Part shown: in pieces, positions 35,637 through 64,000 of the stretch | Layout of the letters: each line of letters opens with the position of its first letter | How positions within the stretch are numbered: position 1 is the stretch's first letter | NCBI RefSeq assembly: GCF_000732725.1 | Contig: NZ_JPNB01000001.1 | Location: 248,001 to 312,000, forward strand | Direction of reading: 5' to 3' | DNA: 64,000 bases | From: Kineothrix alysoides | GTDB lineage: Bacteria > Bacillota > Clostridia > Lachnospirales > Lachnospiraceae | Program-made: the position numbers and the translations under genes | Notes under the pieces: model-generated | Databases searched by the model: none | Seen by the model: the letters and a program-made list of their open reading frames with translations, nothing else | Told to the model about the DNA's origin: nothing

Positions 35637-35715
35637 CGCATAGAGGGGTCTTCCTCATACGGTTGAAAGCTTTACGAAAAGCTTTCAATATAGGAATATG
35701 AAAGGAAACTATGCG
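35637..35715 (+). promoter_or_regulatory. leader hairpin plus outer stem covering the comEA start codon
   Basis: TTGAAAGCTTT (35663-35673) and AAAGCTTTCAA (35678-35688) form a perfect 11-bp hairpin with an ACGA loop. Outside it, CGCATAG (35637-35643) complements CTATGCG (35709-35715), which contains the ATG at 35711. The design repeats that seen 560 bp upstream. Confidence 0.55.
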
Positions 35716-36439
35716 GATGAACAACAGAATAATAAATAGGATGAAAAGCGGTATCGCAGCCGGAGCTTGCAGAAGACTTCTTGTGCTTTTTCTTCTATCC
35801 CTTTGTCTGCTTACTGCCGGAGGCTGTGAAAGCAAGGAGGCGGTTCTCTTGGAAACGGAAGATCTCGTATACAATGAACCGGAACCGGCAAAAGAGGATG
35901 GGCAGGAAGAACGAGAGGCTGAGTCGGCAGCGAAGGAACAGATGGAGGAAGCCCATCTGTTTGTACATATATGCGGAGCGGTGCGAAATCCCGGGGTCTA
36001 TGAGCTGGAACAGGGAAGTCGTATTTTTGAGGCAGTAGAGGCAGCAGGCGGATTCCGTGAGGACGCATGCGAGAATTATGTGAATATGGCACTGCAGTTG
36101 GAGGACGGCTGGAAAATCGTCATCCCGACGGTGGAGGAAAGCGAAGTCATGCTGGCGGCGGGCGACACATCAGAAGCTGCTTTTTCATACGGTTTGCCGG
36201 ATGGTGCAGTCATTTCCGGTTCCGGGACGAAGGGAGCCGAAAGCGGGCTTGTCAATATCAATACTGCTTCCGGGGAGGAGCTTTGTTCTTTGCCCGGTAT
36301 TGGAGAGAGCAGGGCGGACAGCATTATCGCATATAGGGAAAAAAGCGGCGGGTTTGCAAAGCCCGAGGATATTATGCAGGTGGAGGGAATCAAAGAGGGA
36401 ATGTTCTCAAAACTGAAGGATAAGATTTGTGTCAAGTAA
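35711..36439 (+). CDS. comEA: ComEA-like DNA-binding competence lipoprotein
   Basis: This 242-aa protein has a signal segment ending LCLLTAGGC (probable lipidation cysteine), an acidic linker, a SLBB domain (about residues 78-140: ICGAVRNPGVYELEQGSRIFE) and two helix-hairpin-helix motifs at the C-terminus (INTASGEELCSLPGIGESRA and EDIMQVEGIKEG). ComEA binds transforming DNA outside the membrane and passes it to the ComEC channel. comEC lies 3.3 kb downstream, but is broken by the inserted element. Confidence 0.92.
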   Translation: MRMNNRIINRMKSGIAAGACRRLLVLFLLSLCLLTAGGCESKEAVLLETEDLVYNEPEPAKEDGQEEREAESAAKEQMEEAHLFVHICGAVRNPGVYELEQGSRIFEAVEAAGGFREDACENYVNMALQLEDGWKIVIPTVEESEVMLAAGDTSEAAFSYGLPDGAVISGSGTKGAESGLVNINTASGEELCSLPGIGESRADSIIAYREKSGGFAKPEDIMQVEGIKEGMFSKLKDKICVK

Positions 36440-39762: not shown

Positions 39763-40437
39763 ATGCGAAGGCCTCTATGTCTGTTTTGCCTGACATTTGT
39801 GGTTGTGCTGGTTTGTTGTATGCGGTTTATACCGATGCCCGTCCCCGATTACGGAAGTCTGGATGGGCGGCAGCTTTTACTGGAGGGTCAGGTCTATCAA
39901 AAGGAGTACCGGGTATTTGAAGACGGTAATAGCGTCAAAAAGGTTCTTATTCTCTATCTCAAATCAATTCATATTCCGAGCAAGTCGGAGCATTCTATTA
40001 AAATTCCACAAAAAAGATTACACAATATTATATGTTATATGGAATCCGGGACGGAGCCTGCCATCGGAAGTACGGTACGAGTGGAAGGGACCGTACAGTG
40101 TTTTCGCGAGGCTTCCAATCCAGGAGAATTCGATGTGCGCGCTTACTACCGCATCATGAAGCTGGATTTTAAGCTGAACAAGGCGAGGTTAACAGCTCGC
40201 AGCCTGGAATATGACAAGCTGCGGGAGGGGTTGTATCTCATAAAAAAGAAGCTGGGAGTTTCACTGGATAACTGCTTTAATAAAGAGGATGCCTCCATTA
40301 TGAAGGCGATGCTTTTGGGAGATACGGGCAATATGGATGAAGAAATAAAGGAGCTTTATAAGCGAAGCGGAATCATTCATATTCTGGCGATTTCCGGTGT
40401 TAAGACTTTAAACTTGGTATCCCCAGCCACCTCATAA
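39763..40437 (+). pseudogene. comEC: comEC, 5' fragment interrupted by an inserted element
   Basis: The first 213 residues match the N-terminus of ComEC/Rec2: a membrane helix at residues 5-25, the DUF4131-type OB-like domain (EGTVQCFREASNPGEFDVRAYY), and the start of the Competence domain (MLLGDTGNMDEEIKELYKRSG, HILAISG). After VKTL the frame runs into unrelated sequence and stops at 40437. Full ComEC is usually 700 residues or more. The break falls at the strongly conserved HxLAISGLH motif, so the DNA uptake channel is not made from this locus unless the element excises. Confidence 0.88.
40390..40405. other. inferred left attachment junction (attL) of the element in comEC
   Basis: Coding similarity to ComEC ends at ATTTCCGGTGTT (40390-40401), exactly in the ISG motif, and A+T-rich foreign sequence follows. 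A large serine recombinase lies 11-13 kb inside. The exact crossover bases cannot be set without the empty site or attR. Confidence 0.55.
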
Positions 40438-40468
40438 AACCCCATGGATTGGGCATTCTTGCTAGTGT

Positions 40469-42438: not shown

Positions 42439-42918
42439 GTGGATTGTTTAACAAAAGAACAACGCCATAAAAACATGTCGCATATAAAAAGTAAGGATAC
42501 AAGAATTGAAGTTGTGTTGCGACATGCACTTTGGAAAAGTGGATATCGGTATAGAAAAAATTACAATGACTTACCTGGAAAACCCGACATTGCAATTACA
42601 AAGTACAAAATTGCAGTTTTCTGTGATAGTGAATTTTGGCATGGAAAGGATTGGGAAGTATTGAAATCACGTTTGAATAAAAGTAATAACTCGGAGTTTT
42701 GGATTACTAAAATAGCTCGTAACCGTGAAAGGGATGATGAAGTTAACAAAAAACTTTTATTTATGGGTTGGACAATCATTCGTTTCTGGGGACAGGACAT
42801 TATAAAAAGTACAGAAGCATGTATTAAGGTTATTGATGAAACAGTGCATGATATTCTTTTTGGGACCGATGTATTTGATAGCGAAGATGATATTCTGACT
42901 GGAAAGGCGAAGGAGTGA
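42439..42918 (+). CDS. vsr: very short patch repair endonuclease
   Basis: This 159-aa Vsr-type nuclease nicks T:G mismatches formed by deamination of 5-methylcytosine. Segments are the N-terminal RHKNMSHIKSKDTRIE, catalytic Asp50 in LPGKPDIAI, the FWHG histidine (His68) and MGWTIIRFWGQDI. The usual HGCFWH motif is changed to CDSEFWHG. The start is GTG with GAGGTGG upstream. A cytosine-C5 methyltransferase 3 kb downstream is the expected partner. Confidence 0.94.
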   Translation: MDCLTKEQRHKNMSHIKSKDTRIEVVLRHALWKSGYRYRKNYNDLPGKPDIAITKYKIAVFCDSEFWHGKDWEVLKSRLNKSNNSEFWITKIARNRERDDEVNKKLLFMGWTIIRFWGQDIIKSTEACIKVIDETVHDILFGTDVFDSEDDILTGKAKE

Positions 42919-42922
42919 AACG

Positions 42923-44614
42923 ATGAAAGACTTAAATGAATTAGCATTAACATTGCAGCGTTCATACAAGGAAGAATTTGATTCAAAGGAGATTCTATTA
43001 TCTGATTCCTTTAAAGAGACGTATGGAACTTTTTTGAGAAGTATATCGCAGGATATTGATTATACACAGCATACGGCAACAATTACCTCTGCAGGTAATT
43101 TGAAGATGTATATTCCGAATCAATGGTTTAGGGCAGCAGCGTTTATGGTCCCATATGTATCCGAAATAGTAGAATATAAAAAATTAGCTGAAAAGATTTT
43201 GTCAGAGAAGTTTGAATCGGTCAAAGATAAAAAGCAGTATTACTCTGACATGAAAAATACTAAAGACACTGATGCTATAGAAAGGCTGAGAAAATGGATT
43301 ACTGACTATTGTGATATAAATGCTATTTCTGATGATGGGATTGTGGCAGAGCAATTAACTTCTTTTATATCAAATTATGAATGGTGGTTTGGTAGTAAAA
43401 CTATTGATCGTGGAGATTATTACGTATCCCCAGTGTTAGCACTATTAGGTGTGGTGAATGCATCTCAGAGCTATATAGCAGATATTAGCTATAATTTAGC
43501 AACCCATGCGGAACTTGCAGTTGCTTCGGAAGAAATGTTAAAATCCGTTTCAGAAGAAGATGAAGAGGGAGAAATATTTGCTCCAGCTGAAATAATTAAT
43601 AGTGAAGTTGAACGAAAAAAGGGTGGCATAAATGAGATTGTGTATGGTGCGCCTGGAACTGGAAAGAGTCGTTATCTGGCTGACAAATATAAATCGGCAC
43701 CACTAACTCGCAGGGTAGTGTTTCATTCGGAATATTCATATTATGATTTTATCGGAGTGTATAAGCCCGTTCCTATTTATAAGAATTCAAATGATATTTT
43801 TAATACAATTGATGGACAAGTCTTTACACAGGGGGAACCATATATTGATTACCAATTTGTTCCAGGTCCATTTATCCGTGTGTTGGTTGAAGCTTGGCTG
43901 GATCCAGGCAGAATGCATACATTACTTATTGAAGAGATAAATAGAGCAGATGCGGCAGCCGTGTTTGGCGAGATATTCCAATTATTAGATAGAGATGTGG
44001 ATGGAAACAGCGAGTATTCATTTGAGCCATCTAGGGATTTAAAAGAGTACTTGGCGTCAATAGTTGGCATGAAATTTTATATTGAGAAAGGAATTTCCAT
44101 ACCATCCAATATGAATATCGTAGCTACAATGAATAGTGCAGACCAAGGTGTAAAGCCGATGGATTCTGCTTTTAAGAGACGTTGGAATTTTCACTATGTT
44201 CGTATCAACATTAAAGGTGCTGTCCATGAAAATGCAAAAATCAGATATGCCGGAAGAGAATGTTACTGGGGTACATTAATCAGTATTATTAATCAAAAAT
44301 TAGCCGGTGGTACGATACAATTAGAGGAAGATAAATTAATCGGACCGTACTTTATCAAGCCAGATGAGGTTGGAAAAAAACGTGCAATAGATAAACTTCT
44401 GTTGTATTTATGGGATGATGTGCTGAGACACTACAGGGATTCCTTTTTTAGCAATGAAATAAAAACATTTGCGAGCTTGTCAGAAAAGTTTGAAGAAGAA
44501 GATGTATTGGATATTATTCATCCTCCATTTGATATTGATATGCTCATTTCGGACAGTATTGAATTGAATGTAGAAGCGCAGATTGTAAATGAAGAGGAAG
44601 ATGCAAACGAATAG
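42923..44614 (+). CDS. mcrB: McrB-type GTPase subunit of a modification-dependent restriction system
   Basis: This 563-aa AAA+ motor has Walker A GAPGTGKS near residue 240, the McrB-type Walker B LLIEEINRADAAAVFGEIFQLLDR, and sensor VATMNSADQGVKPMDSAFKRRW. The N-terminal 230 residues are the target-recognition part and do not look like the E. coli McrB DNA-binding domain, so the modification recognised may differ. It starts 4 bp after vsr, and mcrC follows 11 bp later. Confidence 0.93.
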   Translation: MKDLNELALTLQRSYKEEFDSKEILLSDSFKETYGTFLRSISQDIDYTQHTATITSAGNLKMYIPNQWFRAAAFMVPYVSEIVEYKKLAEKILSEKFESVKDKKQYYSDMKNTKDTDAIERLRKWITDYCDINAISDDGIVAEQLTSFISNYEWWFGSKTIDRGDYYVSPVLALLGVVNASQSYIADISYNLATHAELAVASEEMLKSVSEEDEEGEIFAPAEIINSEVERKKGGINEIVYGAPGTGKSRYLADKYKSAPLTRRVVFHSEYSYYDFIGVYKPVPIYKNSNDIFNTIDGQVFTQGEPYIDYQFVPGPFIRVLVEAWLDPGRMHTLLIEEINRADAAAVFGEIFQLLDRDVDGNSEYSFEPSRDLKEYLASIVGMKFYIEKGISIPSNMNIVATMNSADQGVKPMDSAFKRRWNFHYVRINIKGAVHENAKIRYAGRECYWGTLISIINQKLAGGTIQLEEDKLIGPYFIKPDEVGKKRAIDKLLLYLWDDVLRHYRDSFFSNEIKTFASLSEKFEEEDVLDIIHPPFDIDMLISDSIELNVEAQIVNEEEDANE

Positions 44615-44625
44615 GAGGTACAGGC

Positions 44626-45912
44626 ATGGAGATGAGTCCTATTTGTCTGAGCGACTCTCAATTATACAGTCTATATATGTTTCCACAAATTGCAGAATAT
44701 TTAAAGAATTATCCAGATATTTGCGTTGTTTATAACCACACTTTTCAATTTAAATTTACCGGAGTACTAATTATTAATAATCTTCCAGTTATTGTGTTTC
44801 CAAAGAATTACAAGATACAAGAATCCCTACAGATACAAATTGAGGAAGCAAGTATTTTGACAAGAACTTTGATTCGATATCGCAACGAACCAGTGCATGA
44901 GATCGAGGAGAATAGGTATTTGTTTGGAGATTCAGCAAATTGCAATGCACGAATAACAACTGCGATTCGGATCATTGAGGACTACAAAATGTATGGGTAT
45001 CTTCACCGTAATCTTGAAACCTTTTCAACAACAAGAAAAGGAAAAGTCGAGTGGGCAAAAACGATTAATAAAACGATTCCAAGCATAAATCATGGACGCG
45101 TTGCCTATAGCAATCCTGTCATGAAAAGTAGCAGGGACGACAGCCGAAATACCATTTGTAGAATACACCGCTATATCGTTTCTGATGCAGTACAAATATG
45201 GGGGTGGTTAACTGGAATGCATATAGACTATGAAATGTCTGAAGCAACAATGCCGTGCCCTGCAGAAGATGGAATTTTTGTTTTGCAACAAGAATTAAGA
45301 AATGTATATGTACAAAGAGAGATTGGACTAATCAAAATGATGATTGCCTATCTTAGGGCAAAGGCAGGAGTGGAACAGAACTTCAATAAAGAGATTCTTG
45401 GAACACAATATTTTAGCTTTGTATGGGAGGCTATTTGTGGATATATGTTTTATAATAAATATCCAGTATTAAATTCTTTGGTCCCCCAGCCGGAATGGGA
45501 AAGTGATATTGTGGAAGGTAGAATATCACAAAGGCCAGATGTGTTTACTGTGCACAAGGATGTTCTCTATATTTTGGATGCAAAGTATTATAATTTCAAT
45601 TCAAATCTTCCGGGATGGCACGATGTTGTTAAACAAATGTTTTATCGGCATACAGTAATGTTGAACTTAAAAACACCACATGGAAGACGAATGCTGCCAA
45701 AGAGTACAGAAGTTAAGAATGCATTTTTATTCCCAGGAAGCGAAAAAACATCTTTACAATATGTTGGGAAGGTTTTTGTTAAAGGAATTGATGATTTGGG
45801 GGAAGTCAAGGCTTTTGCGGTGAATCAACGTGATGCTATGAGAATCTATGCATACAGAAATGATGATGTTTATCGTAATGAAATTGTGAATCAACTTGCG
45901 ACACAGTGCTAA
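44626..45912 (+). CDS. mcrC: McrC-type nuclease subunit
   Basis: This 428-aa protein is the endonuclease partner of McrB. The PD-(D/E)xK site is visible as SQRPDVFTVHKDVLYILDAKYY (catalytic residues about 301-320). The N-terminal region should contact McrB. The tight spacing with mcrB indicates one operon. Confidence 0.92.
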   Translation: MEMSPICLSDSQLYSLYMFPQIAEYLKNYPDICVVYNHTFQFKFTGVLIINNLPVIVFPKNYKIQESLQIQIEEASILTRTLIRYRNEPVHEIEENRYLFGDSANCNARITTAIRIIEDYKMYGYLHRNLETFSTTRKGKVEWAKTINKTIPSINHGRVAYSNPVMKSSRDDSRNTICRIHRYIVSDAVQIWGWLTGMHIDYEMSEATMPCPAEDGIFVLQQELRNVYVQREIGLIKMMIAYLRAKAGVEQNFNKEILGTQYFSFVWEAICGYMFYNKYPVLNSLVPQPEWESDIVEGRISQRPDVFTVHKDVLYILDAKYYNFNSNLPGWHDVVKQMFYRHTVMLNLKTPHGRRMLPKSTEVKNAFLFPGSEKTSLQYVGKVFVKGIDDLGEVKAFAVNQRDAMRIYAYRNDDVYRNEIVNQLATQC

Positions 45913-46000
45913 TTCACACATGAATCTATCTCAAAACCGCTTTACTTCAAGGGTGAAATGTGATAAAATCAGGACAAATTGACCTGAGATGGGGGACGAG

Positions 46001-47161
46001 ATGAGTACAAACATATTAATAAAAGAAAAGAGAAACAAATTAGGCCTTACCCAGAAGGATTTTTCTGATGCACTAGGGATGGGAAGAAACGGAGAAAGAA
46101 CCCTTAGAAGATGGGAAAATGGAGAGTCCTCTCCCTCAAATATTGAATTGAATCACGTGTTGAATTTTGCTTCTGAAGTTCCCTTTGAAAAGAAAAAAGA
46201 TATGAGATTCAAGTTTATCGATTTGTTTGCGGGAATAGGTGGAATACGCATCCCTTTTCAGGAATTAGGAGGGGAATGTGTTTTTACATCAGAATGGGAT
46301 AAGTTTTCTCAGAAAACTTACAGAATTAATTTTGGAGAAGAGCCATCGGGTGATATTACTAAAATCACTGATACTAAGGAACACATTGAGCAGATTCCGG
46401 ATTTTGATGTATTATTGGCAGGATTTCCATGCCAACCATTTTCGCAGGCTGGATTAAAAAAAGGCTTTGCAGATACAAGAGGAACTTTATTCTTTGAGAT
46501 TGAGAGAATCATAGAGAAAAAAAAGCCCAAAGCTTTTCTGCTAGAAAATGTTAAACAGCTGCGAGGTCACGATAAAGGAAGAACCTTAAAAGTGATTTTG
46601 CAGCACTTGGTAGCCCTTGGATATTTTGTGGATTATAGTGTGCTGAGAGCAGCTGATTATGGAGTACCACAGAACAGAGAGCGAATTTACATTGTTGGAT
46701 TCGATAAAAAACAAATAGACATACCTAGCCATTATAGTTTTCCATATCCACAGCCGACGCATGAAATTACGAGGGTTGGCAGCATTTTGGAGACGAATGT
46801 CGACGAAAAGTACACTATTAGTGATAAACTGTGGGAAGGTCATTTGCGAAGAAAGAAAGAGCATCAGGAAAAGGGAAATGGCTTTGGTTTTTCGCTAGTG
46901 AATGCAGATTCCGAATATACGAATACAATTAGCGCGAGATATTATAAAGATGGAAGTGAAATACTGGTTGAACAGGAGGGATTGAACCCGAGAAAGTTGA
47001 CACCAAGAGAATGTGCAAGATTACAGGGATTTCCAGAAGAATTTATTATTCCGGTGTCAGATACACAGGCATATAAACAGTTTGGTAATTCGGTGGCGAT
47101 TCCTGTTATACGAGCTGTAGCAAAACAGGTAATTAGTGAAATGAATAGACTCAAGAAATAA
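46001..47161 (+). CDS. DNA (cytosine-5-)-methyltransferase with N-terminal HTH
   Basis: This 386-aa C5-methyltransferase has FKFIDLFAGIGGIR (AdoMet), the catalytic GFPCQPFSQAG (Cys144), FLLENVKQL, the RERIYIVGF motif and the C-terminal FGNSVAIPVI. Residues about 5-50 form an XRE-like helix-turn-helix (LTQKDFSDALGMGRNGERTLRRW), a fusion seen in methyltransferases that control their own operon. The ATG at 46001 has GGGGG 5 bp upstream, so it is preferred over that at 45989. The vsr gene upstream is its natural repair partner. Confidence 0.94.
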   Translation: MSTNILIKEKRNKLGLTQKDFSDALGMGRNGERTLRRWENGESSPSNIELNHVLNFASEVPFEKKKDMRFKFIDLFAGIGGIRIPFQELGGECVFTSEWDKFSQKTYRINFGEEPSGDITKITDTKEHIEQIPDFDVLLAGFPCQPFSQAGLKKGFADTRGTLFFEIERIIEKKKPKAFLLENVKQLRGHDKGRTLKVILQHLVALGYFVDYSVLRAADYGVPQNRERIYIVGFDKKQIDIPSHYSFPYPQPTHEITRVGSILETNVDEKYTISDKLWEGHLRRKKEHQEKGNGFGFSLVNADSEYTNTISARYYKDGSEILVEQEGLNPRKLTPRECARLQGFPEEFIIPVSDTQAYKQFGNSVAIPVIRAVAKQVISEMNRLKK

Positions 47162-48744: not shown

Positions 48745-49647
48745 CTATTCGGAGGGGGAAAGGCTTTGAAAGATATCTATTTGCCCCTCCACATTTTCTT
48801 CCGGTTCAGAATCCAAAACACCTTCATCCAAGGTACCTTCCTGATTGAAAGTTCTTTTAGGAGCTTTATGTTTATAGAGGGTTTCCCATTTCAGGGGATA
48901 GTGCGATTTCTTATTATAAAAGATGAGTATTGCTTCAGCATAGCCTAGAGATCCAGCCCTGCGCTCTTTGGCAGTACGGCTGATTTCTTTGACGGACACA
49001 CGCCCGAGTTTTTCCTTAAACACGCTATCTTTTATTGCGTCCCCATAAGCAAATATTAATCGTGCTACACCATTCATCATATTGGCACTAAGGGATTGCT
49101 GTGCCCCTTCCCATGTCCCAATACAAAGTCGTAGAACATGATCCAAGACGTGGAAGCCATATTTGTCATGAATGTTTTCCAGTGTTGAAACGGCACAAAT
49201 GCCGTTGGGAGTAACGGTAGATGAAATGGTCATATCGTAGGATTCCACAAGGTCTTTTATAATCAGTTGTTTATCATTTTCGGCCTCTATATTTGCCATA
49301 AAAATTTCATATGGCAGCAGAGGTTTTACATATTTCATCTGATTGGCAAAGATATCTGCCTCATGGGAATATTCTAAATCGTCGTAAATCATGCACCACA
49401 CGGGAGTCTCTCTTGAACCCGACACCAAAGAAATGATTTCTATAGTATGCTGACCGTTGAATACATAATTTACTCCGTCCCGACGGCTGACTTTTACGGG
49501 ATTAATCTGATAAAGGTCAAAATGTGTAGCCGCCCGCTGTACATGATGCATTGAAAGATTTCTCTGATATTCCTGATTAGATACAAGGTTTTTTATTGGT
49601 ATCTGTTCAAAGTGTACGTTAGGAACGTACTGTTGTAAATCGTCCAT
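48745..49647 (-). CDS. ParB-like protein, DUF6551-like
   Basis: This 300-aa protein starts with a ParB/sulfiredoxin-like domain: IPIKNLVSNQEYQRNLSMHH, then FNGQHTIEIISLV at about residues 65-77 in place of the classical DGxHR. The remainder is helical with no clear HTH. It resembles from memory DUF6551 proteins. The ATG overlaps the upstream stop by one base (TAATG), so translation is coupled. A DNA-binding or NTP-dependent clamp role is inferred from the fold only. Confidence 0.75.
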   Translation of the reverse strand: MDDLQQYVPNVHFEQIPIKNLVSNQEYQRNLSMHHVQRAATHFDLYQINPVKVSRRDGVNYVFNGQHTIEIISLVSGSRETPVWCMIYDDLEYSHEADIFANQMKYVKPLLPYEIFMANIEAENDKQLIIKDLVESYDMTISSTVTPNGICAVSTLENIHDKYGFHVLDHVLRLCIGTWEGAQQSLSANMMNGVARLIFAYGDAIKDSVFKEKLGRVSVKEISRTAKERRAGSLGYAEAILIFYNKKSHYPLKWETLYKHKAPKRTFNQEGTLDEGVLDSEPEENVEGQIDIFQSLSPSE

Positions 49648-50585
49648 TACTTAGCCTCCTCAATTTGCTTTAATATAGATTTTATTGCTTCTTCTAAAAT
49701 GAATAATTGTTTTGTTACTTTTGTTTTGGCAGAGGTAGAAATACTAGCAAAATCAGTAGTATCGCCAGAACGCTTTATGGAGCTTACCCAGGAAGGGATT
49801 GTCAGAGACAGGCTTGATATTTCTGCATCTGGGTCATATTTTGGAATTTTCTTTAAAGGAAGATTCACAGTCACTTTTATCCTTGGAACGGATACAGGTA
49901 TTCGTTTCCATTGTAATTCGTGGCGGATTTCCGAATAGCCAATATGGTCCATTTTATTATTGGTAAAAATATCTCTAAGACACTTCAGATCTTCCTTTGG
50001 AAGTCTGGACAATTCCACGGTATTCTCATGAGAAACCTTGACTTTACCAGACAGAATCCTGGATGCAATGGCCGGTTCTCTTTGCTTTATGAAATCAACA
50101 GCAGATGCAAAGGCATCATATTTCATAACTGTTGCATGGGATATAGAAAAGTCTGAACCAATTATCCGGGCGGTTTCATGTTTATTGCATGCTATATTAT
50201 TGCGAAAGACATAGGATGAATTCTGTGGCGAAGCATCTCGTTGGCGTATTTCTGATTCAGCTTGATATTTTTTCCCAATCAGATACTTCATCATTTCCAT
50301 TACAAGGTCAGGACGTTTCAATTGCGTGGAGCAGATGTAGGAAATGGCATCCATTCGTTCTCTAAATTCCATCTGTTTTACATCAAAAGGGATATTCCAT
50401 TTTTGACATACGCCATAACGTTTGTGACCGTCAATGATTAAACTATTCCATGTCAATAGGGGTTCATGACACCCATTATTAAAAATGTCCTCCTCTAGAT
50501 TTGTATAATAGGCAGTATCACATGACTGAATAAGCTCCGAGAATTCGGTATCAATACGGAAGGTGAGTTGTTTTATATCAATCAT
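49647..50585 (-). CDS. ParB/Spo0J-like protein
   Basis: This 312-aa protein has an N-terminal ParB domain (LEEDIFNNGCHEPLLTWNSLIIDGHKRYGVCQKWNI, about residues 35-70). A central helical part follows with a probable helix-turn-helix (ETARIIGSDFSISHATVMKYDAFASAV, about 140-165), and then a basic C-terminus. Such proteins often bind DNA and act in partition, in nuclease activity or as transcription co-factors. The ATG at 50585 overlaps the upstream stop by 8 bp. No ParA is encoded nearby, so plasmid-type partition is uncertain. Confidence 0.8.
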   Translation of the reverse strand: MIDIKQLTFRIDTEFSELIQSCDTAYYTNLEEDIFNNGCHEPLLTWNSLIIDGHKRYGVCQKWNIPFDVKQMEFRERMDAISYICSTQLKRPDLVMEMMKYLIGKKYQAESEIRQRDASPQNSSYVFRNNIACNKHETARIIGSDFSISHATVMKYDAFASAVDFIKQREPAIASRILSGKVKVSHENTVELSRLPKEDLKCLRDIFTNNKMDHIGYSEIRHELQWKRIPVSVPRIKVTVNLPLKKIPKYDPDAEISSLSLTIPSWVSSIKRSGDTTDFASISTSAKTKVTKQLFILEEAIKSILKQIEEAK

Positions 50586-50982
50586 TGGTGGGCACCTGTA
50601 CAACTGCATTCAGTAATTCGTCAACTAAAACGCTATCCTTCATAGAAAATTGTGCAATTTTTGCAGTTTGGTTCAAAAATCCGTAGATTCGGTAGGAGCA
50701 GTCAGTCAGCCAATTGTTGTCAACACTTTTTAATGTCCGTATGAGGTTAGTACTGTAGAGTTCATAGCAGTTTCCTTCTGCAAGCTGATATTGTTTGATA
50801 CGATGAGCAAGGTTATCTTCACGACAGCTTCTACGAATGGCTATCATTCGTGAAGAGGGGTTTACGAGTAACTGTATATATTCTGGGTCACCGAGCATAT
50901 GTAATGTCATTTTATGAATGCGAATACGGTTCTTTTTTAAATCAATACAAAGGATTGGTTGTAAAGATGTCTGACTGTTCAT
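50578..50982 (-). CDS. 134-aa stand-alone copy of the recombinase C-terminal module
   Basis: This protein has no family I know, but it aligns by eye with the C-terminus of the recombinase at 51654 and with the 239-aa neighbour. Shared features are IQLLVNPSSRMIAIRRSC, a late W before a CSYRIYGFL strand and a closing acidic/hydrophobic segment. AGGAGGAG lies 10 bp before the ATG at 50982. The gene overlaps the upstream gene by 41 bp. Its role may be to bind DNA or the integrase. Confidence 0.75.
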   Translation of the reverse strand: MNSQTSLQPILCIDLKKNRIRIHKMTLHMLGDPEYIQLLVNPSSRMIAIRRSCREDNLAHRIKQYQLAEGNCYELYSTNLIRTLKSVDNNWLTDCSYRIYGFLNQTAKIAQFSMKDSVLVDELLNAVVQVPTND

Positions 50983-51661
50983 GGGTTTTATTCTCCTCCT
51001 GTTCTTCGGGTGTTATTGGCTTTGGCTCTTTCCTTGGTTCTTGAATACCAAAGACGGTATATCCATCAAAGGTATTTATCTGCAGACTGCGTTGGTGCTC
51101 TTCCACAGGGATACCGAACTGGTTCTGCCATTCAGCAGGGTAGGTGGGCGTACGGGATGTTTTTAGTGGTTCTCCTTCTTTTGCTGTTTTCATGTATATT
51201 TCTGGAGTGGTTAAATCAAATATGAAGAGGAGTTCATCCCCGGATTGGATTAATTTGCCGAGCAGTTTATACTTGTAAGACGGATTCCAATTCATAAGAG
51301 ATATTATTTTGGAAAAGAAAATACGGCAGGTTATTTGTTTAGGCCCACGTTTTTTACCATTGGTGATCCAACGGAAGGAATCCTTTTCATTTTCCGTACA
51401 TGGCCGGATGCCAAGTTTCTTATCATCGGAATTAACCAATATCTGTACGAACTCAACATCTGGCAGCTTTCTGATACAGGCGGTATTGACGGATACCTTG
51501 TAGTTATGAAAGGCAAAGGATGGTTCAAACACGTGAGCAAAGAACTCGCCACGGACGACCTGATAACCTTCATAACTAAAGTCATTATCCTGTTGGATTT
51601 CCATATCTTTTGCAGAGGAAGGAGATATGGCAGTTTGTGAATTAATTTCTGATTCATTCAT
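50942..51661 (-). CDS. 239-aa stand-alone copy of the recombinase C-terminal module
   Basis: This protein shares with the recombinase C-terminus the GYQVVRGEFF start (GYEIARAQFF there), an LVNSDDKKLGIRPC block, the MNWNPSYKYKLLG block (LNWKEECKYRVIG there), FIFDLTTPEI (LIFNLQETEI) and TYPAEWQNQFG (AYPPNWMNGFG). It therefore looks like the same domain without the catalytic part. Its start overlaps the recombinase stop by 8 bp. It may be an accessory factor for target choice or direction of recombination. Confidence 0.8.
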   Translation of the reverse strand: MNESEINSQTAISPSSAKDMEIQQDNDFSYEGYQVVRGEFFAHVFEPSFAFHNYKVSVNTACIRKLPDVEFVQILVNSDDKKLGIRPCTENEKDSFRWITNGKKRGPKQITCRIFFSKIISLMNWNPSYKYKLLGKLIQSGDELLFIFDLTTPEIYMKTAKEGEPLKTSRTPTYPAEWQNQFGIPVEEHQRSLQINTFDGYTVFGIQEPRKEPKPITPEEQEENKTHEQSDIFTTNPLY

Positions 51662-53546
51662 TGATAGTCTCCTTTATATCATTTATAATTTGGTGTATTT
51701 CCTGACCGACAATACTTATGTCAGTCACATTAATATCAGGACTTTTATACGGCTTACTTTCCATGGATGCCGACCATGTGGTATTCCCATAAAATTCAGC
51801 CAGTTCCTTTGCCTGTGCATGTGTGTAGAAATCCTTTCCAAATCCATTCATCCAGTTGGGTGGATAGGCCAGTATATTTTTCTTTACCCCTCTTGTGAAC
51901 GGATTCATTCCGTTGTACAGAGAGCCATTAGAGTCTGTTTCTGAATTCCCGGTATTAAGCATATTATTGGGAATCAGAATCTCGGTCTCCTGAAGGTTAA
52001 AGATAAGTATGTTCTCGGATTCTTTTTGATGATGTACACCGATTACCCGATATTTGCATTCCTCCTTCCAATTCAAGAGTTCATACAATGTCGGAAGACA
52101 GGCAGCCCCCCTGATTGGAATGGGTACGATTGTATCATTATGAAGTCTACATGCCTGTACTCCGTTGCGGTTCTCTGTGCCACAGGAACGGACTGCAAAC
52201 AATAACTTGTCCGGATGAATCAACATTTCTATACGCATATCTTTACCTATTTTACGAATGGCTTCCGTAGCTAAAATAAGAGTATCTCGTGAAAAGGTAA
52301 CAGTGATTTTGTTCGAAGTATCAAAGAACTGTGCTCGAGCAATTTCATATCCCCTCAAGTCAAAATCTCCAGACTGTGCCTTGAATTCTACAGGAGCGGT
52401 CGGAAACTTTACGATCCCACCATCATATGCACTATACGAGGCATCCCTGTAATCATCCGGCTTAAAACCTGCCCATCGGGGATTGATGGAAACGAATCCT
52501 CTCAGCGGACCATTTGAAATCACATGGAGTTCCGGTAGAAATTTCTGATTGCCATACTTGGCATTATTAATCAGTCGCTGGACAGCAATGAAATCGTCGC
52601 GGGAAATGATGGATTCATGATGGTTTTTCATGAGATACTGATTTCTGTCCTGACGATTCTTCTTTGATTTATGATCCAGATAGTTAGGAGTCCATGTTTT
52701 TCTGGATAGGACATCGCCACAGTGTCGCTCATTCTGAAGAATCTGCAGTATGCTCCCGACTGCCCAGGAGGTATTTCCCTTTTTTGTCCGGCATCCAAGT
52801 TCTGTCAGGGTTTCTGCTATCTGCTTGCAGGTATAGCCATACAAATACATGAAGAAGATGAGCCGGACGACTTTTGCTTCTTCTTCATTGATGATGAGAT
52901 TCCCATCTTCATCCTTGTCATAACCCAGAAGTGAAGGGGTAAGGAAGATACCTCGTTTAAAGCGCATTTCGATGGAAGCATTCATGATTTCACTTTTTGT
53001 ATGGCTCTCTTCCTGTGCAAGTGTAGAAATAAATGATAGGCTCATCTCACTGTTGGGATTGAGGGTATATATGTTCTCTGTCTCAAAGAAAACACCGATT
53101 GGTGGCTGCATGGCAGCAAGCTGTCTGACATAGCCAATACAATCGAGAACATTACGGGCAAAACGAGACACGCTTTTCGTAACTACTAAATCAATCTTTC
53201 TAGCTCTGCAGTCATCAATCATTTTTATAAAAGCAGTCCGGTGCTGAAGGGAAGTGCCGGATATTCCTTCGTCTGCATAAATCCCGACTAAATTCCAATC
53301 CTCACGTTTGCTCACCATATCCATATAATGATTTTTTTGCAATTCATAGGAGGAAGTCTGCCTCGGGTCATCGGTGGATACTCTGGCATACACGGCTACC
53401 CGCTTTGCAGAAGTTGTATGATAAAAATCTTCTTTTGGTATGGCCGGTATCACGTCAAGGGCATCGGAATCCACGCCTTTATATCGTTCTCTGATTTTTG
53501 ATTTTGGGTCTTTTGTATTTCCTAATTCTTTTTCATTTTCTATCAT
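51654..53546 (-). CDS. large serine recombinase (integrase) with unusual C-terminal module
   Basis: This 630-aa recombinase has a resolvase domain (about residues 48-200) with catalytic Ser57 in VYARVSTDD and the KSVSRFARN arginine motif. A Recombinase domain follows (about 205-320: SLLGYDKDEDGNLIINEEEAKVVRLIFFMYLYG). The usual zinc-ribbon/coiled-coil C-terminus is replaced by a module (about 360-600) lacking CxxC and repeated in the next two genes. The ATG at 53546 has AAAGGGTG upstream. Known biology: such integrases join attP and attB with a 2-bp crossover. It is the likely enzyme that inserted this element in comEC. Confidence 0.92.
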   Translation of the reverse strand: MIENEKELGNTKDPKSKIRERYKGVDSDALDVIPAIPKEDFYHTTSAKRVAVYARVSTDDPRQTSSYELQKNHYMDMVSKREDWNLVGIYADEGISGTSLQHRTAFIKMIDDCRARKIDLVVTKSVSRFARNVLDCIGYVRQLAAMQPPIGVFFETENIYTLNPNSEMSLSFISTLAQEESHTKSEIMNASIEMRFKRGIFLTPSLLGYDKDEDGNLIINEEEAKVVRLIFFMYLYGYTCKQIAETLTELGCRTKKGNTSWAVGSILQILQNERHCGDVLSRKTWTPNYLDHKSKKNRQDRNQYLMKNHHESIISRDDFIAVQRLINNAKYGNQKFLPELHVISNGPLRGFVSINPRWAGFKPDDYRDASYSAYDGGIVKFPTAPVEFKAQSGDFDLRGYEIARAQFFDTSNKITVTFSRDTLILATEAIRKIGKDMRIEMLIHPDKLLFAVRSCGTENRNGVQACRLHNDTIVPIPIRGAACLPTLYELLNWKEECKYRVIGVHHQKESENILIFNLQETEILIPNNMLNTGNSETDSNGSLYNGMNPFTRGVKKNILAYPPNWMNGFGKDFYTHAQAKELAEFYGNTTWSASMESKPYKSPDINVTDISIVGQEIHQIINDIKETINE

Positions 53547-53670
53547 AATTTTCACCCTTTTCTGAAACATATGGGTTCATTATATTTTTTTCATAAACGA
53601 AAGAAAATAGACTACAGGGATATATGTAGACCTGTAGTCTATTTACAAGTGAATACAACTATGTTCTAAT

Positions 53671-54051
53671 TTAATTTTTTTTGTGTCGATTTGGATTTTC
53701 ATGAATTACGCAACCAATATTGCGCAGACTTATTTTGGTTGCGCTTATGATTTCAAAAATAAAGCGCCTTTCATATTTTGAGCAGTCTGCCATGAGCAAA
53801 TCTATATCCGTCTGATACTCTGTTGGATTATAAAGCTGATTGCCATTAAGCAATTCATCGACAGTTACACCGAGAGAATCGGATATGCGTATGAGCGATT
53901 CCAGACTTGCTTGTTTGTAGGCAGTTTCGATATGGCTGATATAAGATATTGATAACTCCGTCATTTCCGCAAGCATTGCCTGTGTAATACGTTGTCCGCA
54001 GCGTATTTCCTTTATGCGTTTACCGATTAGTACAAAATTTACAGTCGTCAT
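53671..54051 (-). CDS. XRE-family repressor-like protein
   Basis: This 126-aa protein has a Cro/C1 helix-turn-helix at about residues 7-62 (RIKEIRCGQRITQAMLAEMTELSISYISHIE) and a short helical tail. GGAGGTG precedes the ATG at 54051. It is divergent from another XRE gene, with a small ORF between, as in phage lysogeny switches. Confidence 0.9.
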   Translation of the reverse strand: MTTVNFVLIGKRIKEIRCGQRITQAMLAEMTELSISYISHIETAYKQASLESLIRISDSLGVTVDELLNGNQLYNPTEYQTDIDLLMADCSKYERRFIFEIISATKISLRNIGCVIHENPNRHKKN

Positions 54052-54093
54052 AATATTCACCTCCTTCCCGAATGATTGAAGGCGGGTGGAGAT

Positions 54094-56643: not shown

Positions 56644-56815
56644 ACGCAAAATGGGGTGTTATATGATTTGGCAAAAGTACCAGATCATTGAAACATCCCG
56701 TTTTTACGTTCAAGACCAGAAATTCTGCTTCCGGGAAATGAGTTTATTTCAGCAGTAGTATATAGCCATAAGTTAGCGCTGACTTAAATAAGACCCAGAA
56801 GAAAGGTTCAAAGAT

Positions 56816-58663: not shown

Positions 58664-59215
58664 ATGAGTACAACAAATAACAACGATGCAACAAAGGTAG
58701 TAATTCCATGCAGATTTTCTTATTTTAACGGTTGGGAGCCGCAGTCTATCAATGGGTCAGACCCTAAGTATTCCGTATCAGCAATCATTGATAAAAATGA
58801 TACGGAGACCATTGCCAAGATTAAGGCAGCCATTGAAATTGCGAAAAAGGAGGCTCTTGCAAAATGGGGAGGTAAAATTCCTGCCAACTTGAAGCTTCCT
58901 CTTAGGGACGGAGACATTGACCGCCCAGAGAACCCAGAGTATGCCAACAGTTACTTCATCAACGCCAACAGTAAACAGGCACCTCAGATTGTGGATAAGC
59001 AGGTACAGCCAATTCTCGACCAGAGTGAAGTGTACAGCGGATGCTACGGTAGAATTTCCGTTACCTTCTATGGCTACAACAGTAACGGCAATCGTGGAAT
59101 TGCAGCAGGATGGGGCAATTGTCAGTTCCTCAAAGCAGGAGAACCACTTGGTAGCAGAACAACCGCAGCAGCAGATTTTGATGCAGTTGATGGCGAAGAT
59201 GATTTTCTCGGCTAA
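58664..59215 (+). CDS. DUF2815 family protein (single-strand DNA-binding-like)
   Basis: This 183-aa protein has the DUF2815 pattern: VVIPCRFSYFNGWEPQSI, the KYSVSAIIDKND segment, ANSKQAPQIVDKQ and the acidic tail DAVDGEDDF. Acidic tails on OB-fold proteins commonly recruit partners to single-stranded DNA, and phage DUF2815 proteins are thought to act like SSB. GGAGG precedes the start. Confidence 0.92.
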   Translation: MSTTNNNDATKVVIPCRFSYFNGWEPQSINGSDPKYSVSAIIDKNDTETIAKIKAAIEIAKKEALAKWGGKIPANLKLPLRDGDIDRPENPEYANSYFINANSKQAPQIVDKQVQPILDQSEVYSGCYGRISVTFYGYNSNGNRGIAAGWGNCQFLKAGEPLGSRTTAAADFDAVDGEDDFLG

Positions 59216-59223
59216 TGAATAAT

Positions 59224-59255
59224 ATGAGAGGGCGGTTTTACAGCCGCCCTCTCAT
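59224..59255 (+). repeat. 12-bp perfect hairpin between DUF2815 and DNA polymerase
   Basis: ATGAGAGGGCGG (59224-59235) and CCGCCCTCTCAT (59244-59255) form a G+C-rich 12-bp stem with an 8-nt loop. AAAACGGAAAGG, not a T-tract, follows, so RNA processing or partial attenuation is more likely than full termination. Confidence 0.75.
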
Positions 59256-59274
59256 AAAACGGAAAGGATATATT

Positions 59275-61215
59275 ATGGCAAAACAACTGGCAATAGATAT
59301 AGAAACATATTCTGATGAAGACCTGATTTCAGGCGGAGTCTATCGGTATACGGATTCTGATAACTTTGAGATTCTGCTGTTTGCATATTCCATTGATGAT
59401 GCCGAGGCACAGATTGTTGATCTTGCCTGTGGGGAAGTGATTCCACTTGTGATTGTAAAAATGCTGACTGATGATTCCGTGATAAAGACAGCTTTTAACG
59501 CTAATTTTGAACGTACTTGTTTATCAAAATATATGAGCATGAAGCTACAACCGGAAAGCTGGAGATGTACCGCAGTGCAGTCGGCAATGCTTGCCCTTCC
59601 TTTATCATTGGAGGCTGTCGGAACGGTCCTGGGACTGGATAAGCAGAAGATGTCTGAAGGAAAGGAACTGATTAAGTATTTCTGTTGTCCATGCAAAGCC
59701 ACAAAAGTAAATGGCGGTCGGACAAGAAATCTCCCGGAGAATGCCCCGGACAAATGGGAGTTGTTTAAATCGTATTGTATAAGGGATGTGGACGTAGAAA
59801 GGCAGATACGAGCAAAACTGCAGAAATACCCTATATCTGATAGAGAGCAACAAATGTACTGTATGGATCAGAGGATAAATGACAGAGGAATTATGGTAGA
59901 CAGAAATCTTGTGGAACATGCTATTACCTGTGACCTTCTGTATAAAGAAACGGCTACGAAAAGAGCCTATGAGCTTTCAGAACTGGATAATCCGAACAGT
60001 GTGTCTCAGTTAAAAGGATGGCTTCAATCGAGAGGTTTATCGGTGGATTCCCTTGCCAAGGATGCAGTCAGAGATTTGATAAAGGAGACGGACGGTGAGG
60101 TGGCAGAACTTCTTACGTTAAGGCTTCGGATGTCAAAGACATCGGTTAAGAAATATGAAGCCATAGACCGAGCGGTATGTCATGAAAACAGGGTACATGG
60201 ATTGTTGCAGTTTTACGGAGCAAACAGGACCGGCAGATGGGCAGGACGCTTGGTTCAGATACACAACCTACCCCAGAATCATATCGAGGACTTGGAACTT
60301 GCGAGGTCTCTTGTGGAAACAGGACGATACGGAGATGTGGAACTTTTCTACGAAAGTACCCCAGAGGTATTGTCGGAGTTAATCAGGACAGCATTTATTG
60401 CAAAGCCGGGATGCAGATTTATCATATCGGATTTTAGTGCGATAGAAGCGAGGGTTCTTTCCTGGATGGCAGGAGAGTCATGGCGTATGGAGGTATTCAC
60501 TACTCATGGGAAGATTTATGAGGCCTCCGCCTCTGCCATGTTCCATGTTCCGATTGAAGAGATTACAAAAACTTCTCCGCTAAGAGCCAAAGGAAAGATT
60601 GCAGAACTGGCACTCGGATATGGGGGTTCGGTAGGAGCGCTCACGGCAATGGGAGCGTTGGAGATGGGATTAAGCGAAGAGGAGTTGCAACCGCTAGTAA
60701 ATGTTTGGAGAAGTGCCAATCCAAACATTGTTAAATTCTGGTGGCAAGTAGATGAGGCTGCAGTTACAGCAGTTAAGGAAAAGACAATAAAAAGAGTGGG
60801 AATGCTTACCTTTGAATATCAGGGCGGTATCCTGTTCGTTACACTTCCGTCAGGAAGAAAGCTGTCATACATCAAGCCTCGGATAGGAATTAATAAGTTC
60901 GGCAGAGAAGGGCTTACCTATGAGGGAATTGGGGAATCCAAGAAGTGGATGCGGATTGAAACGTATGGACCTAAGTTAGTAGAAAATGTAATTCAGGCCA
61001 CAAGCAGGGATATCCTTGCGGAGGCAATGCTGAGGCTTGAAACCGCAGGATTTGACATTGTCTGCCATGTGCATGATGAGGTAGTACTGGAAGTGCCGGA
61101 GGGAACAGCATCGGTAGAAGAAATAAATGAAATTATGGCGGTTAATCTGGCATGGACTAAAGGACTGCCTCTAAAGGCGGACGGATTTGAAAGTCTATTT
61201 TATAAGAAAGAGTAG
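59275..61215 (+). CDS. phage family A DNA polymerase
   Basis: This 646-aa polymerase has an N-terminal 3'-5' exonuclease-like domain (AIDIETYSDED, then FNANFERTCL) and a C-terminal Pol I domain with FSAIEARVLSWMAGE (motif A), the O-helix segment RAKGKIAELALGYGG (motif B) and CHVHDEVVLEVPE (motif C). The ATG at 59275 has GGAAAGG upstream, so the longer frame from 59215 is not used. It probably copies the element or phage genome. Confidence 0.95.
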   Translation: MAKQLAIDIETYSDEDLISGGVYRYTDSDNFEILLFAYSIDDAEAQIVDLACGEVIPLVIVKMLTDDSVIKTAFNANFERTCLSKYMSMKLQPESWRCTAVQSAMLALPLSLEAVGTVLGLDKQKMSEGKELIKYFCCPCKATKVNGGRTRNLPENAPDKWELFKSYCIRDVDVERQIRAKLQKYPISDREQQMYCMDQRINDRGIMVDRNLVEHAITCDLLYKETATKRAYELSELDNPNSVSQLKGWLQSRGLSVDSLAKDAVRDLIKETDGEVAELLTLRLRMSKTSVKKYEAIDRAVCHENRVHGLLQFYGANRTGRWAGRLVQIHNLPQNHIEDLELARSLVETGRYGDVELFYESTPEVLSELIRTAFIAKPGCRFIISDFSAIEARVLSWMAGESWRMEVFTTHGKIYEASASAMFHVPIEEITKTSPLRAKGKIAELALGYGGSVGALTAMGALEMGLSEEELQPLVNVWRSANPNIVKFWWQVDEAAVTAVKEKTIKRVGMLTFEYQGGILFVTLPSGRKLSYIKPRIGINKFGREGLTYEGIGESKKWMRIETYGPKLVENVIQATSRDILAEAMLRLETAGFDIVCHVHDEVVLEVPEGTASVEEINEIMAVNLAWTKGLPLKADGFESLFYKKE

Positions 61216-61217
61216 GG

Positions 61218-61415
61218 ATGCTGATGTCTGGAAAAAACAAGGAAGGATATTCTGATCCGACAGCCACAGAGGCGTTGTGCAGAATCATGCAGGAAGAAAA
61301 ACAAAGGTTGAAGGACATGTGCAACAGTTGTATGCACCGTTGGTATTGTGGTGCGGCATATAAAAAAGATACATGGTGTGGAAACCATACGGAAAGAGGG
61401 GGCAAGTTTATATGA
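61218..61415 (+). CDS. small Cys-containing protein (65 aa)
   Basis: It has four cysteines at the C-terminal half (CNSCMHRWYC, TWCG), like a short zinc finger. It begins 2 bp after the polymerase stop and its end overlaps the VirE-like start at 61412, so it sits in a fully packed operon. No homologue is recognised. Confidence 0.65.
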   Translation: MLMSGKNKEGYSDPTATEALCRIMQEEKQRLKDMCNSCMHRWYCGAAYKKDTWCGNHTERGGKFI

Positions 61416-63796: not shown

Positions 63797-64000
63797 ACTG
63801 TTTCCCGATGTGTTTCATAAAGGGGTAAGCAACGGTAGTTGGAAACCATCGTAGCCCCTTGCCTTATAAGGGGTTGCGAGTTGTTGTTTCCTATGTTTCC
63901 TATTTTTACTATTGAGTATGTAGAAGTAATAGAAAACAGGCACGGATGTACGTGTATATACGCATATAGAGAGAATAGAGTTTTTAGGACAGGAAACAAA

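Follow-up and report, generated by a model that had tools for sequence, protein, structure and literature searches.

Natural transformation in gut Clostridia is largely an open question. In Kineothrix alysoides it is posed by comEC, the gene of the DNA-uptake channel protein, which an initial annotation had described as interrupted at its HxLAISGLH motif by a mobile element. What has entered this gene, at which bases, and what would the insertion mean for the bacterium and for the element? The window analysed here is a stretch of 64,000 nucleotides (C1:248001-312000, where C1 is the contig bearing both parts of comEC; the genome, G000, comprises 4.68 Mb in 3 contigs), and the element is followed beyond its right edge along C1.

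A prophage within comEC

The features to which we refer are the following (window positions, unless preceded by C1):

35711-36439, + strand: intact comEA-like gene, with SLBB (PF10531) and helix-hairpin-helix (HHH_3, PF12836) domains
39763-40395, + strand: ORF of the comEC 5' part, ending in HILAIS (PF13567/PF03772 positions 1-31; in-frame continuation at C1:346442)
40396-40397, + strand: attL core GG (crossover), from comparison with intact relatives and five other lysogens; the attR core GG is C1:346442-346443
40398-40437, + strand: phage-derived tail of the truncated comEC frame, corresponding to the attP right arm TGTTAAGACTTTAAACTTGG; a similar arm occurs in other lysogens
40398-64000, + strand: left 23.6 kb of the 58,046-bp prophage, the remainder of which runs to C1:346443
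42439-42918, + strand: Vsr-type endonuclease, cargo (PF03852)
42923-44614, + strand: McrB-like AAA restriction subunit, cargo (PF07728; PADLOC REase_II)
44626-45912, + strand: LlaJI-type restriction endonuclease subunit, cargo (PF09563, E=3e-59)
45989-47161, + strand: C-5 cytosine DNA methylase, cargo (PF00145, E=1e-111)
48745-51661, - strand: four small genes, one ParB-like/DUF6551, which adjoin the third recombinase in relatives too
51654-53570, - strand: third large serine recombinase, LSR3, 638 aa (PF00239 and PF07508; relatives 51-63% identical)
53671-54060, - strand: HTH repressor-like protein (PF01381; PHROG transcription regulators)
59215-61215, + strand: phage DNA polymerase (phrog_17)
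61373-63796, + strand: phage helicase/primase (phrog_256)
C1:338721-340268: Int1, large serine recombinase, overlapping Int2 in a tandem pair near the right end
C1:340153-341583: Int2, large serine recombinase, overlapping Int1 in the same pair

Judged by its gene content, the element in comEC is a complete-looking tailed prophage, with genes for structure, packaging and lysis (terminase, portal, head protease, capsid, tape measure and endolysin) and a G+C content of 40.5%, lower than the 43.6% and 43.3% of the flanking stretches used for comparison. The domain scan covered 38 of its 67 ORFs, against Pfam or PHROGs; Int1 and Int2 each combine Resolvase, Recombinase and zinc-ribbon domains. The genes at 42439-47161 form a LlaJI-type restriction-modification set that is carried as cargo beside attL. 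Between Int2 and attR (C1:342195-346268, i.e. L004:14195 to L005:1268) lies candidate defence cargo, namely a DUF5131/PDC-M30-like pair and a protein kinase matched best in PADLOC by mad6 and PD-T4-6. The block comprising LSR3 and the repressor (48745-54060) is at the left end here and beside Int2 at the right end in the related loci L053-L056 (see below), which places attP at a different point of the circular gene order.

Some other components expected of a competence system are present. The gene at 35711-36439, which we take to be comEA from its pair of SLBB and helix-hairpin-helix domains, is intact, as had been noted initially, and the genome also encodes DprA and four PF00437 ATPases. Two of the latter (C1:1194607 and C1:1191506) are 3 kb apart, as PilB- and PilT-like genes would be, and by their length are presumably such genes.

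The junctions and the restored frame

Read from its start at 39763, the comEC frame passes through SGIIHILAISG into 12 phage-encoded residues and stops at 40435-40437, the cut falling at 40396-40397 within HILAISG|MH. Its comEC portion keeps DUF4131 at the N-terminus and, of PF03772, no more than positions 1-31. A search of the whole genome with PF03772 gave two matches, this frame and positions 30-265 at C1:346442-347167, so that the sole comEC of the genome consists of these two separated halves. The codons that were expected past position 64000 are thus in place: the 3' part, a 536-aa ORF with a metallo-β-lactamase domain, follows after 58,046 bp, its contig and strand being those of the 5' part. 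The gene following it encodes DNA polymerase III delta; the ORFs after comEC in L053 and L055 resemble this downstream ORF, as judged by eye. An assembly artefact or contig end as the cause of the split was rejected, both halves being on one 2.3-Mb contig.

The left junction reads ATTTCC-GG-TGTTAAGACTTTAAACTTGG (in short, attL ATTTCC-GG-TGTTAAG) and the right junction ATAAAGATTCAGACG-GG-CATGCATATTTC (attR CAGACG-GG-CATGCAT), where the intact comEC of the congeneric genome G009 has ATTTCCGGCATGCACATTTC. The two junctions share a core of 2 bp, GG, with differing flanks and no long direct repeat at the true attR, as expected for a serine integrase; the positions of GG at 40396-40397 and C1:346442-346443 define an element of 58,046 bp. 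The initial annotation had anticipated a repeat of the bases at 40390-40401 at the far end. Such a copy of the 12-bp word ATTTCCGGTGTT does exist, at C1:346248-346259 (L005:1248-1259), at the end of the right-end kinase gene and 180-190 bp inside attR. It is not the junction: the right junction is GACG-GG in five other lysogens, and in K. alysoides this sequence lies about 190 bp beyond the second copy. In a chance test, 8 of 2000 random 52-mers shared at least 12 bases with the same 400-bp stretch, and the second copy is possibly a scar of earlier recombination at an attL.

Joining the two flanks in silico yields an open ComEC of 748 aa, in accord with the original proposal that precise excision would restore the gene. 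Its alignment with the G009 protein is free of gaps, with 643 of 739 aligned residues identical (87%). The motif is intact in 14 of the 15 other genomes of the genus that were fetched. The exception is G007, where comEC is broken at contig ends with an 8-bp overlap; we did not accept it as a lysogen, for these ends lie 8-16 bp short of the core on its upstream side, and a search at E 1e-60 gave no Int2 match. Against G009, dN/dS is 0.11 and 0.09 for the two comEC halves, values near 0.1 that mostly reflect the time before integration; beyond G009 dS is saturated in most comparisons, and dN/dS is accordingly little informative.

The same cut in other hosts

Relatives of Int2 were sought in a genome collection, giving 23 loci. 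The four at 69-73% identity come from [Ruminococcus] torques ATCC 27756 (L053), a Mediterraneibacter MAG (L054), a Ruminococcus MAG (L055) and Lachnoclostridium An131 (L056). In all four host genomes comEC is split near position 29-32 of PF03772, attR reads GACG-GG, and attL reads GG-TGTTAAGACT or GG-TGTTCAAACT. Five host genomes besides that of K. alysoides show the same split with related arms (G080, G081, G082, G083 and G387), and all five lysogens have, like it, a GG core with differing flanks; G230 is the same genome as G082, that of L055, with identical places and values. G387, a single 3.08-Mb contig, has an insert of 68 kb whose attL and attR are the same and whose Int2 is 71% identical to ours; an assembly artefact or contig end was rejected there too. 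At 51-53% identity (L057, L058 and L063) the host comEC is one open frame in each of three cases, which indicates that the target varies within the wider recombinase family. The integration site was traced for the four loci at 69-73% and for the Butyrivibrio locus L059 (below), as distinct from L065 (59%, on a 3.2-kb contig) and the other loci that are below 50% or partial.

A census of 396 genomes of the family of K. alysoides (completeness at least 90, one per species) found PF03772 in 388, with two matches in 15, G000 included. We reopened 26 genomes: the other 14 with two matches, ten with weak single matches, G241 with a short frame, and G007. On this basis comEC is broken at the ISG motif in at least 6 of the 396, a lower bound because single matches stronger than about 1e-39 were left closed, apart from G241. 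In three of the six the phage is on the contig (G000, G230 and G387), in two the break coincides with contig ends (G198 and G228), and G321 carries another insertion. Of the 32 genomes in which Int2 was sought, 15 gave some match at E 1e-60, and matches of 69% or more were confined to those with a split comEC (G000, G080, G081, G082/G230, G083 and G387). G233 and G187, where contig ends interrupt comEC at other points of the domain (PF03772 positions ~47-59 and 58, respectively), were not counted.

G228 and G198 each have comEC on two contigs whose ends overlap by precisely the 2 bp of the core, GG in the former (..TCAGG / GGATTA..) and TC in the latter (..TCATC / TCACTT..). The break at TC suggests an element with a TC core in G198. 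In its genus, represented by G198 (L145, L146) and a second genome, G421 (L201), AISSLH stands in place of the usual motif and TC occupies the core. The insertion in G321 (L149, L150) lies 6-8 bp upstream of the GG core, has an ATA core and apparently represents a different element.

Phage records that end in comEC

A tblastn search with Int2 matched 390 phage records, and among the best 40 of these the top matches are labelled Ca. Heliusvirales. We opened 15 records with this label (PV036410, 411, 415, 418, 422, 424, 432, 434, 435, 436, 437, 442, 443, 446 and 453). They possess the recombinase pair and the third recombinase as in the window prophage, with Int2 58-72% identical in 14 and 52% in PV036453, and LSR3 50-64% identical across the 15 PV0364xx records. 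In ten, comEC lies at an edge and is severed at the identical codon (PV036410, 415, 418, 424, 434, 435, 436, 437, 442 and 443); PV036446 stops precisely at the attR-arm core, and comEC was not found in the remaining 4 of the 15. Both junctions are present in PV036415, and PV036436 and PV036437 have a different base beside the core (AAAC-AGG vs AAACG-GG in relatives). In five of the phage records seen the comEC piece is labelled 'hypothetical protein', the comEC C-terminal halves in PV036418, PV036424, PV036434, PV036435 and PV036442 being so named. By its recombinases, on which alone the relationship was judged, the prophage is related to these Ca. Heliusvirales records. The latter would in turn be linked to the Ca. 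Heliusviridae of PMC9226167, the main text of which has no occurrence of comEC, competence, integrase or recombinase.

PF03772 was absent from all 13 IMG/VR records searched. One of the IMG/VR records, IMGVR_UViG_2806310979 (L193, 113.5 kb), joins a Blautia-type attR arm to a torques-type attL arm at position 56731, and is probably a tandem lysogen in which two phages of this type occupy a single site. The attP right arm, sought in 25 phage records, gave three matches, namely a true attL (PV036443), this phage-phage junction and a chance match inside comEC (PV036442).

Other comEC sites and known systems

The phage of Butyrivibrio sp. MB2005 (L059), with Int2 53% and Int1 39% identical to those of K. 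alysoides, interrupts comEC further along, in the lactamase domain at VGQG|DG. Its junctions are GGACAG-GG-TGTCTTACTG on the left and GTGCTCGACG-GG-AGACGG on the right, and it has the attP core GACG-GG-TGT in common with the window prophage.

That prophages can occupy competence genes, comEC of streptococci among them, was already known. According to the part of PMC4260502 considered here, the Streptococcus pyogenes phages phi1207.3, phi10394.4 and phi29862 are likewise prophages (52-59 kb) inside comEC, with three serine recombinases, two of them in tandem at the right end, and a dinucleotide core duplicated on integration. Their attachment site is a different one: that of phi29862, for which the two flanks were read apart, has a GA core in the THADTDH region of the metallo-β-lactamase domain, whereas the site here is ISG|MH with GG. 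Identity to Int2 in their Int2-like protein is no higher than 44%, over 433 residues, and the macrolide-efflux genes that they carry are absent from the 38 of 67 ORFs scanned in our element. Phages with related recombinase pairs are thus found at three places in comEC: ISG|MH, VGQG|DG (Butyrivibrio) and the THADTDH region (phi29862). Streptococcal relatives of Int2 at ~50% include phages named for rum, which means that targeting of comEC does not extend to all of the wider family.

Elements in comYC, comFA, comM and comEC likewise inactivate competence genes site-specifically, with one pneumococcal case in comEC; these involve other genes and integrases, and Lachnospiraceae are not mentioned in the portion of text at hand (PMC4774983). 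ComEC is reported as a phage protein in two Paenibacillus larvae prophages in the section of PMC9341999 consulted; on the present analogy, these might represent host genes split by the phages. The ISG|MH site and the Lachnospiraceae host range of comEC phages were not found in print in the mostly open-access literature covered.

Which recombinase integrates?

The foreign sequence had been said to contain an integrase. A serine recombinase does lie in the window (LSR3, 51654-53570), but it is probably not the enzyme that made the comEC insertion; the likelier integrase is the Int1/Int2 pair at C1:338721-341583, beyond the window. This preference draws on Butyrivibrio sp. MB2005, where a comEC phage with the same attP core has Int1 and Int2 and the only LSR3 matches in the genome are cross-matches to this pair, which points to the pair as the integrase. 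LSR3 also occurs in L057 and L058, whose hosts have an intact comEC. That LSR3 rather than the pair acts on comEC would fit its presence in every ISG-site phage checked (that of K. alysoides, L053-L056, PV036410, G387 and nine other comEC-bearing records) and its 40.8% identical relative in phi1207.3, likewise in comEC; set against the Butyrivibrio, L057 and L058 cases, we regard this as very unlikely.

In an Int2 tree of 22 chosen rows with a midpoint root, the 6 resolved ISG-site phages fall within one 10-row clade (support 100/99), which also holds the tandem record and three unresolved viral contigs. The phi1207.3 branch is long and its placement unsure.

Consequences for transformation

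Taken jointly, a temperate tailed phage, an attachment site in comEC and serine-recombinase integration by the pair make up a reading of which we are highly confident. A phage related to the Ca. Heliusvirales would use comEC as its attachment site, the tandem Int1/Int2 recombining attP (...CAGACG-GG-TGTTAAGAC...) with attB in comEC (...ATTTCC-GG-CATGCAT...). Integration would sever the channel protein after Ser211 from most of the Competence domain and from the metallo-β-lactamase domain. With these domains gone, ComEC function would be lost, and lysogens should not be transformable. Since integration is precise, excision would restore the 748-aa ComEC.

Why should a phage choose this gene? 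Disruption of competence genes has been argued to benefit mobile elements (PMC4774983, in part), and the curing model of Croucher et al., as far as set out in the parts of PMC4774983 and PMC12637031 used here, provides the basis for a benefit to the phage: a non-transformable host could not delete the prophage by importing an empty allele. A motif so conserved would, moreover, offer the phage many hosts. Of the reasons considered for the choice of site, such a benefit to the phage is the most probable, though the selective benefit of disabling transformation, taken by itself, has in our judgement about even odds.

The motif could also serve simply as a conserved DNA word found in many hosts, with loss of competence as a by-product in bacteria that perhaps do not transform. 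SG.H is present in 42 of 44 intact-gene loci scanned, always with L or M, and proof of transformation in Lachnospiraceae was not found in the literature searched. Such neutrality nevertheless fits poorly with phages with related recombinase pairs striking comEC at three different places and with the apparently different element 6-8 bp away in G321, which make the gene, and not one DNA word, the shared factor; we find the neutral account doubtful.

A further possibility, by analogy with comK in Listeria, is active lysogeny, in which non-lytic excision would restore comEC and permit DNA uptake before re-integration, making the phage a regulated switch. There, as the part of PMC6872733 considered here describes, the A118-like prophage phi10403S likewise interrupts a competence gene precisely and excision restores it; its target is the regulator comK and its regulated non-lytic excision was demonstrated, whereas our case is read from sequence. 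The precise 2-bp junction and the in-frame restoration in silico agree with a switch, as do the comEC parts in six phage-bearing host genomes, the 3' parts being open over ~535-590 aa without stops and the 5' parts open up to their phage-derived ends; open halves are, however, equally expected after recent integration. The contig ends at the 2-bp overlap in G228 and G198 hint at a graph fork between co-occurring integrated and empty alleles, but they could arise from two different elements at the site or from a mixture of strains with and without a prophage; searches of both genomes for Int2 (at E 1e-60) and LSR3 (at E 1e-30) gave no match. A search of IMG/VR with GACGGGTGTTMARACT returned 15 stretches fitting the predicted attP, and in these fetched stretches no phage circle or excised attP was seen, none of the 15 matching comEC or the 32 element ORFs compared (all but ORFs 18-52). 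A switch of the comK kind thus seems unlikely, and a benefit from disabling transformation is the likelier reading of the two.

Several consequences follow for the Lachnospiraceae and their phages. The comEC fragments labelled as hypothetical proteins in phage records are explained, recombinase pairs with a defined chromosomal target are on offer, and concrete species, sites and recombinases are named for study, with the sharp prediction that non-lysogens transform and lysogens do not. If the switch reading were true, lysogens would regain DNA uptake only on phage excision. The boldest extension, to which we give little credence, is that widespread gut phages hold transformation of Lachnospiraceae in a reversible switch, recombinase pairs having evolved repeatedly toward different comEC motifs, so that these commensals would be competent under phage control. 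Related phages that cut comEC at distinct motifs in several genera are what would be expected if uptake through ComEC threatens prophages there, and the recurrence of this cut in gut bacteria suggests that phages gain from switching off DNA uptake by their hosts.
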